In this document: one piece after another, positions 10,524 to 39,895 of the stretch
How the letters are laid out: every line of letters begins with the position of its first letter
Numbering within the stretch: the stretch's first letter is position 1
Assembly (NCBI RefSeq): GCF_002087085.1
Contig: NZ_MWQY01000002.1
Coordinates: 186,001 to 250,000, forward strand
DNA: 64,000 nucleotides
Reading direction: 5' to 3'
Origin: Marispirochaeta aestuarii
GTDB taxonomy: Bacteria > Spirochaetota > Spirochaetia > JC444 > Marispirochaetaceae
Translations under genes and position numbers: made by a program
The notes under the pieces: generated by a model
Told to the model about the DNA's origin: nothing
What the model saw: only the letters and a program-made list of their open reading frames with translations
The model's database searches: none

Positions 10524-10607
10524 GCCGGCGTGGCGAAATTGGTAGACGCGCTAGACTCAAAATCTGGTGGGGGCAACTCCGTGTCGGTTCGAGTCCGACC
10601 GCCGGTA
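10524..10607 (+). tRNA. tRNA-Leu (CAA)
   Basis: An 84-nt class II tRNA. Acceptor strand GCCGGCG pairs with CGCCGGT (G-U first pair) before discriminator A. The anticodon loop CTCAAAA gives anticodon CAA, decoding UUG. The T-arm is GTCGG/TTCGAGT/CCGAC, and a long variable arm (GGTGGGGGCAACTCC) is present as expected for leucine. CCA is not encoded. The 3' part recurs 283 bp downstream. Confidence 0.95.
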
Positions 10608-10639: not shown

Positions 10640-10790
10640 GGGCGCCACTAAAAACGTGGTATTTTTGTTACAGGCAAGGCGGAGGGATTTTGTAGCGCCC
10701 GCAAACTCTTGTGATAACAAGAGTTGAGGACCGCGGGAAATCCCGACAACGCAGCATAGAGCAAAAAGAGTAGTTTTTAGAGGTGACCAC
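10640..10790. repeat. Long imperfect palindrome (cruciform) behind tRNA-Leu
   Basis: Nested inverted repeats: CACTAAAAAC near 10645 with GTTTTTAGAGGTG near 10774, GGGATTT near 10685 with AAATCCC near 10738, and a perfect inner hairpin AACTCTTGT-GATA-ACAAGAGTT at 10704-10725. No coding frame is convincing. It looks like a mobile repeat of the MITE or REP kind; copies elsewhere in the genome would confirm this. Confidence 0.6.
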
Positions 10791-10797
10791 ATTCCAT

Positions 10798-10887
10798 CGG
10801 ACTCGAACGCAGTCCAGGCGATTGGCCCGAAGGGACTATCGTAAGCAGCGAATCGCGAAGCGATGCAGCTGTCGAGTCCGACCGCCG
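10798..10887. repeat. Inverted and direct copies of the tRNA-Leu 3' end
   Basis: 10872-10887 repeats tRNA positions 10589-10604 exactly (TCGAGTCCGACCGCCG). 10798-10809 holds an inverted T-arm match, reading GTTCGAGTCCG on the other strand. A hairpin with ATCGC-GAA-GCGAT lies between them. No integrase gene is present in the window. Confidence 0.6.
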
Positions 10888-10890
10888 CCG

Positions 10891-39184: not shown

Positions 39185-39256
<72 letters not shown>

Positions 39257-39258
<2 letters not shown>

Positions 39259-39293
39259 AAAAAATAGCCGGCCTTTTGGCCGGTTATTTTTTT
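39257..39293 (+). terminator. Rho-independent terminator of tRNA-Arg
   Basis: GCCGGCC-TTTT-GGCCGGT stem flanked by A7 and T7, directly after the tRNA. The symmetric runs would let it work in both directions. Confidence 0.9.
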
Positions 39294-39309
39294 ATGCCTG
39301 ATGTGTGCT

Positions 39310-39823
39310 GAACGCATGACAGCGTTGAGAATCGCGCCAAGCAGTTCGCAACGCGAACTGCAAGCCCAAGCTTGCGGCAGGGTTTTCCGCAGGAAAATCC
39401 CGAGAGCAAGCGCAGCGGCCCGGGGCACGTGTTTATCCCCCCGCCGAACGCATGACAGCGTTGAGAATCGCGCCCAGCAGTTCGCAACGCGAACTGCCAG
39501 CCCAAGCTTGCGGCAGGCGGAAGCGTCAGCGTCCGCCGAGAGCAAGCGCAGCGGTCGGGGGCACGTGTTTATCCCCCTGCCGAACGCATGCATGCGTTCG
39601 AATCGCGCCCGGCAATCCGCTCCTGCGGATTGCAAGCCCAAGCTTGCGGCAGGGTTTTCCGCAGGAAAATCCCGAGAGCAAGCGCAGCGGTCGGGGGCAC
39701 GTGTTTATCCCCCTGCCGAACGCATGACAGCGGTGAGAATCACGCCCAGCAGTTCGCAACGCGAACTGCCAGCCCAAGCTTGCGGCAGGGTTTTCCAAAG
39801 GAAAATCCCGGGAGCAAGCGCCG
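39310..39823. repeat. 136-bp tandem repeat array of nested hairpins (3.8 copies)
   Basis: Units at 39310-39445, 39446-39581, 39582-39717 and a cut one from 39718. Each begins GAACGCATG with a T-arm-like GCGTT(C/G)GAATCGCG, then a hairpin (CAGTTCGC/GCGAACTG, or CAATCCGC/GCGGATTG in unit 3), a GCTTGC/GCAAGC stem enclosing another hairpin (GGTTTTCC/GGAAAATCC, or GGCGGA/TCCGCC in unit 2), and a GGGGG/CCCCC stem. Both hairpins differ in sequence between units but stay paired. The ORFs that cross this array are not considered genes. The array fills the gap from the tRNA-Arg terminator to 39895. Confidence 0.9.
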
Positions 39824-39895
39824 GATCGATATGCTCCTGATTCGATTCTTTCAAAATACTCCCTTCGGGTGTATTATTTATACAGGGCTGCAGGC

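Follow-up and report, generated by a model that had tools for sequence, protein, structure and literature searches.

A hairpin-rich tandem array behind tRNA-Arg in Marispirochaeta aestuarii, read as a variant of the tRNA-linked repeats, and its structured counterparts across the spirochaete class

The tRNA-linked repeats (TLRs) of E. coli were described by Egan and Landy (1978) and Rudd (1999; both cited in PMC8144298). E. coli K-12 carries 22 TLRs at ten loci, their hallmark being 18–19 bp that exactly repeat the 3′ end of the tRNA or rRNA gene upstream; the group takes in the tyrT/RttR (rtT) repeats and rrA/rrB/rrF, and has no settled function (PMC8144298). Neither origin nor function has been agreed on since 1978. 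Inspecting the tyrV and proK loci of E. coli, we find an antisense part of the T-arm, then hairpins, then an exact 18–19-nt copy of the tRNA end, the same plan as at the spirochaete loci reported here. E. coli genomes match a 73-nt piece of the tyrT repeat at between 1 and 9 sites each, with a median of 2. Our literature search for such repeats in spirochaetes found no description; the TLR architecture is far more widespread in this class than we found described.

The window (64 kb of contig C2, from a 4.2-Mb Marispirochaeta genome, G000) contains one array detected by Tandem Repeats Finder, at 39306–39821 (period 136, 3.8 copies, score 760). This agrees with the preliminary description, which had reported a four-unit 136-bp repeat behind tRNA-Arg. 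The host gene, tRNA-Arg(CCT) (39185–39258, + strand; ARAGORN and Rfam RF00005), ends in CGAATCGCGTCGGGGGTA (last 18 nt, C56–A73) and is followed by a terminator-like hairpin with a T-run (39259–39294, +), read from the sequence and recovered in folding. The array sets in about 50 nt 3′ of the gene, past this terminator. The stretch at its edge (39296–39319, +) copies the tRNA 3′ end imperfectly and in antisense; its T-arm part, GAACGCATGA, is predicted to pair with the tRNA T-arm. We dropped a protein-coding reading of the array, as the frames overlap in several registers and the 136 bp of a unit do not make a whole number of codons.

The four units, all on the + strand, start at 136-bp spacing (39309–39444, 39445–39580, 39581–39716 and 39717–39825), the last ending early, at about 39825, just past its core. 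Each bears both sense and antisense pieces of the tRNA 3′ end, a point absent from the preliminary description: an antisense T-arm (GAACGCATG), a sense T-arm part (GAATCGCG, at 39329 in unit 1), the core and an acceptor-like part ((G)GTCGGGGG; GGCCCGGGG at 39417 in unit 1, GGTCGGGGG at 39553 in unit 2). The T-loop of unit 3, GTTCGAATCGCG, is identical to that of the tRNA. The core is laid out as a hairpin (H1), a conserved linker, a stem (A) with a conserved internal loop and a second hairpin (H2). In the first copy (39334–39417, +; 101.5 bits with the covariance model R1, and recovered in folding), these are H1 at 39341–39361, linker AAGCCCAAG, stem A at 39370–39375/39406–39411 and H2 at 39380–39401. 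The other copies, also on the + strand, lie at 39470–39553 (83.5 bits), 39605–39689 (95.1 bits) and 39742–39825 (94.9 bits).

Comparing units reveals paired changes at both hairpins. H1 is GCAGTTCGC-AAC-GCGAACTGC in units 1, 2 and 4, and GCAATCCGC-TCCT-GCGGATTGC in unit 3, two base pairs being altered on both arms. H2 reads GGGTTTTCC-GCA-GGAAAATCCC in units 1 and 3; in unit 2 it is exchanged for a different self-complementary sequence, GGCGGAAGC-GTCA-GCGTCCGCC. Both observations had been made in the preliminary description and are confirmed. Its statement that the units are of identical length holds for the period of 136, but in unit 3 the equality conceals two offsetting changes, a deletion of one nucleotide in the T-arm mimic and an insertion of one in the H1 loop. 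The folding z-scores of the units (−1.9, −2.1, −3.7 and −3.1) are by themselves only moderately unusual; the structural support is the comparison between copies.

The preliminary description placed the array in none of the standard repeat classes. On the architecture, we disagree: it is that of the E. coli TLRs (PMC8144298). Like these, the spirochaete repeats lie behind a tRNA gene, tandemly or singly, with one to five copies per locus and several loci per genome, and combine an antisense T-arm part, hairpins and a copy of the host 3′ end. The window array differs in that an 85-nt core interrupts its copy of the tRNA end, leaving no contiguous 18-nt match, and the spirochaete families differ in their reach, to about 28 kinds of tRNA plus tmRNA. 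We take the window array for a TLR-like variant in which a structured insert divides the copy of the tRNA end. Rfam's RtT (RF00391) is the same kind of element, yet no Rfam family, RtT included, matched at the spirochaete loci.

The match to the host tRNA recurs at other loci. In a second genome of the genus (G001), a complete acceptor end, GTCGGGGGTA, follows the core and is itself followed by a terminator. In a distant family (G121), the core sits directly behind tRNA-Arg and is delimited by 12 nt that repeat the tRNA end. Arrays at tRNA-Pro, tRNA-Leu and tRNA-Met carry the ends of those tRNAs instead, and own-tRNA 3′-end pieces were found in the tRNA-linked arrays that were inspected. The window itself holds a degenerate element of like plan behind tRNA-Leu(CAA) (10524–10607): within 10640–10890, an antisense T-arm (CGGACTCGAAC), hairpins and a sense tail (TCGAGTCCGACCGCCG) of that tRNA occupy 10798–10888 (+), recognized by the own-tail match. 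At four tRNA-Pro loci (L028, L060, L074 and L095), the terminator palindrome reaches into the acceptor end (AGCCCGA...TCGGGCT), so that RNA made by read-through could base-pair with the 3′ end of the tRNA.

Further copies, which the preliminary description had proposed to look for, occur at other sites of this genome and among sister species. A BLAST search with one unit located the core at three more sites in the genome and in both other Marispirochaeta genomes, with no match among 57 other genomes of the class. The covariance model of this type I core (R1, built from 18 copies) finds about 12 copies per genome in the three Marispirochaeta, two in a sister genus and a few in more distant genomes. 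These amount to about 22 loci, 15 of them by manual tally directly behind tRNA-Arg(CCT), tRNA-Pro(GGG/CGG), tRNA-Leu(CAG/TAA) or tRNA-Met. In a set of 39 distinct copies drawn from several genomes, double changes are seen at every one of the 20 modelled pairs and 95.9% of cells are paired, against 67.7% in shuffled controls and 26–48% when the register is slid; the alignment was fitted to R1 and is biased towards the model, the margin still being large. The earlier view that structure is kept and sequence is not stands on this covariation. Copy number at tRNA-Arg is 4, 3 and 1 across the three Marispirochaeta genomes.

Surveying the regions downstream of tRNA genes, we found further tRNA genes that are followed by a copy of their 3′ end, the hairpins there being different. 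This second family, of the same plan as type I (type II, model R2), has matches in 68 of 297 genomes of the class, spread over 37 of 112 genera. Of 122 examined copies, 113 lie just 3′ of a tRNA or tmRNA on the same strand: 106 behind tRNAs of 28 kinds, typically 50–70 nt away, and 7 behind tmRNA; a further 7 are at contig edges. The sense tail matches its own tRNA (score at least 12) in 92% of 91 first elements, and other tRNAs in 3%; for the antisense T-arm, the corresponding figures are 75% and 4%. Tails have a sharp start, at −17 to −19 (about C56), and most extend as far as N73, the discriminator base, so that the 18–19-bp identity typical of E. coli TLRs is found in type II. All 18 modelled pairs show double changes. 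Types I and II are two structured families supported by covariation, and neither gave an Rfam match. The tmRNA loci with a type II element and a copy of the tmRNA 3′ end are L134, L144, L146, L175, L186, L192 and L222.

How do such repeats come to lie where they do? The alternatives named in the preliminary description, a functional folded element or a mobile structured repeat, are still the apt pair. The reading we favour, at about even chances, is that the array is a TLR-architecture variant, a non-coding, non-autonomous and structure-dependent element that inserts and duplicates behind tRNA genes. It is supported by the covariation in both types, the location behind tRNA and tmRNA genes, the own-tRNA tail and the discreteness of the tails, together with the filled and near-empty spacers and the near-perfect type II hairpins described below, the differing copy numbers at tRNA-Arg and the ordinary nature of the adjoining genes. 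Spreading would proceed by structure-dependent insertion recognizing the T-arm region; the tRNA would remain intact, since each insertion would leave or carry its 3′ end in copy. The substrate would be a folded strand, in all likelihood of single-stranded DNA, in which the antisense T-arm copy pairs with the sense one. Tandem copies may come from repeated insertion or unequal exchange, and transcription would occur only by read-through of the tRNA terminator. As a guess, the enzyme might be a tyrosine recombinase acting in trans.

Past the tail, 47 of 77 cases show sequence with no relation to what follows the tRNA itself, and the tail is therefore a discrete copy rather than a piece of a larger tandem duplication; 23 of the 77 run on into the same trailer. 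A direct repeat of the tRNA 3′ end flanks the insert in type II and, over 12 nt, in the G121 copy of type I. At a syntenic tRNA-Ser cluster within one genus, a single spacer measures 7, 48, 186 or 232 nt, being filled or near-empty according to species, and sites therefore change on a short time scale. In the clearest filled/empty pair (G204/G174), the trailer stays beside the tRNA, and simple integration at the T-loop consequently fits poorly; neither this nor an 18-nt target duplication, both of which we considered, cleanly fits that spacer comparison. A separate candidate, a scaffold for an RNA-guided nuclease that would use the tRNA end as its guide, was ruled out by reasoning, as the intact tRNA gene would be cut.

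Could the same data arise with no selection or mobility at all? Tandem slippage and template switching at palindromes might keep the hairpins perfect and copy adjoining tRNA sequence, a mutational by-product that would account for hairpins that are perfect though their sequence varies, for terminator palindromes that reach into the tRNA end (tRNA-Pro, for example) and for the 23 of 77 tails that look like plain tandem duplications. We consider this unlikely, given that 47 tails are discrete, that unpaired linkers and loops are conserved between genera and that one type II core is found at 28 tRNA kinds plus tmRNA.

What pairs with what offers a tentative view of whether the insertion-element reading or a function at the RNA level explains the structure. 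In type II, 73 of 84 distinct second hairpins (hp2) are perfect, with G-T and A-C mismatches equally rare; over the whole model, these number 27 and 43. Near-perfect hairpins in which G-T is as rare as A-C point more to a constraint or repair acting on DNA than to RNA folding. Type I leans the opposite way, with G-T over A-C at 20:5, much of this coming from one bulged motif. Were the units instead transcribed past the tRNA terminator and cut into small regulatory or processing RNAs, with the tRNA-end copy as processing signal, their pairing would be kept by the working of the RNA. The strong covariation of both types agrees with this, as does the constant placement of type II on the tRNA strand; in E. 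coli, three TLRs located behind rRNA operons give rise to sRNAs that have a defined size and are bound by Hfq and CsrA, and a role as processing signal has been proposed for the tail copy (PMC8144298). Yet type II has few G-U pairs with no excess over A-C, occurrence is patchy among close relatives, a whole hairpin is swapped in unit 2, type I occurs in both orientations relative to the tRNA (opposite at tRNA-Pro, unlike type II) and no function is known for most of the E. coli TLRs. We hold such an RNA role to be improbable on balance, if still the strongest of the competing accounts.

The insertion-element reading is in turn weakened by the RNA-like lean of type I mismatches and the inverted copies at tRNA-Pro, and because no enzyme, no autonomous copy and no copy in viral contigs was found. 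Examining by eye the neighbourhoods of 30 elements, we saw no extended, autonomous copy, and none of the longest frames beside them looked recombinase- or integrase-like. About 1 kb from one Marispirochaeta tRNA-Leu array lies a recombinase-like gene. Viral contigs gave no match to either core pattern, type I or type II, and plasmids gave matches to tRNA only.

A further alternative is integron-type recombination. Like attC, the spirochaete repeats keep structure over sequence, and cassette-like arrays with toxin-antitoxin-like genes occur in both systems. The antisense–hairpin–sense unit would then be an attC-like site and the tRNA T-arm the insertion point, with the genome's integron integrase acting on them. 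All three Marispirochaeta genomes encode full-length integron integrases, toxin-antitoxin-like genes lie between the units of one array, and type II and integron integrases co-occur (33 of 297 genomes with both; odds ratio 4.3; p = 1e-6, uncorrected for phylogeny). Unlike attC arrays, the window array has no attC boxes (R″ GTTRRRY/R′ RYYYAAC) on either strand of 39300–39830. No significant R2 match falls in the 10–20 kb around the integron integrases of four genomes, genome-wide R1 matches sit away from integron regions, and 35 of the 68 type II genomes have no integron integrase match. Integron-type recombination is hence a very improbable source of these arrays. The integrase of the window's genome (394 bits) lies at G000:C4:3117–4061 (L157, L163), and the repeats near it resemble ordinary attC sites.

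Other mobile systems compare only in part. Islands and phages integrated at tRNA genes (attL/attR) likewise carry the tRNA 3′ end as a direct repeat on their distal side and leave the tRNA intact; the repeats here are, in contrast, geneless and about 130–200 bp long, with an antisense T-arm and conserved hairpins. REP/BIME and MITE-like hairpin repeats are also short, non-coding, palindromic and dispersed, whereas the spirochaete repeats are bound to tRNA 3′ ends and each matches its host tRNA.

Whether the resemblance to E. coli extends to common descent is a further matter. By eye, rrB and the spirochaete repeat have in common CGGCCCGGAGGG and a hairpin with an AGGA loop; a profile comparison of type II with the E. 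coli TLRs (model R3) gave a best E of 0.26, below a chance match and not significant. Only tentatively, and with the balance against it, do we suggest that TLRs from different phyla form a single class of mobile elements; free of genes, these would home by a folded strand to the T-arm of a tRNA or tmRNA gene and adopt the 3′ end of the tRNA entered; the window array would be a derived form with a second structured module inside the tRNA-end copy. With a class-wide spirochaete counterpart (68 of 297 genomes as carriers, 28 tRNA kinds plus tmRNA, a sharp junction near C56, gain and loss within a genus), it becomes testable how a gene-free repeat gains the tail of each tRNA that it follows.

Some loci carry further features. 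At L019 (G001:C422:261152–264240), a toxin-antitoxin-like pair (DUF4258-like and zinc-finger antitoxin-like, by eye) separates a tRNA-Leu element from a 3′ half of tRNA-Leu that has more elements with it, and antitoxin- or RelE-like genes are near L005, L027 and L203. A third type of repeat follows tRNA-Cys and tRNA-Val (L082, at G000:C2:115480–116550; L121; L076). It too obeys the own-tail rule, with other hairpins (TGCAAGGCGGGCGGCCATAGGCC), and stands in three tandem copies behind tRNA-Cys in G000.
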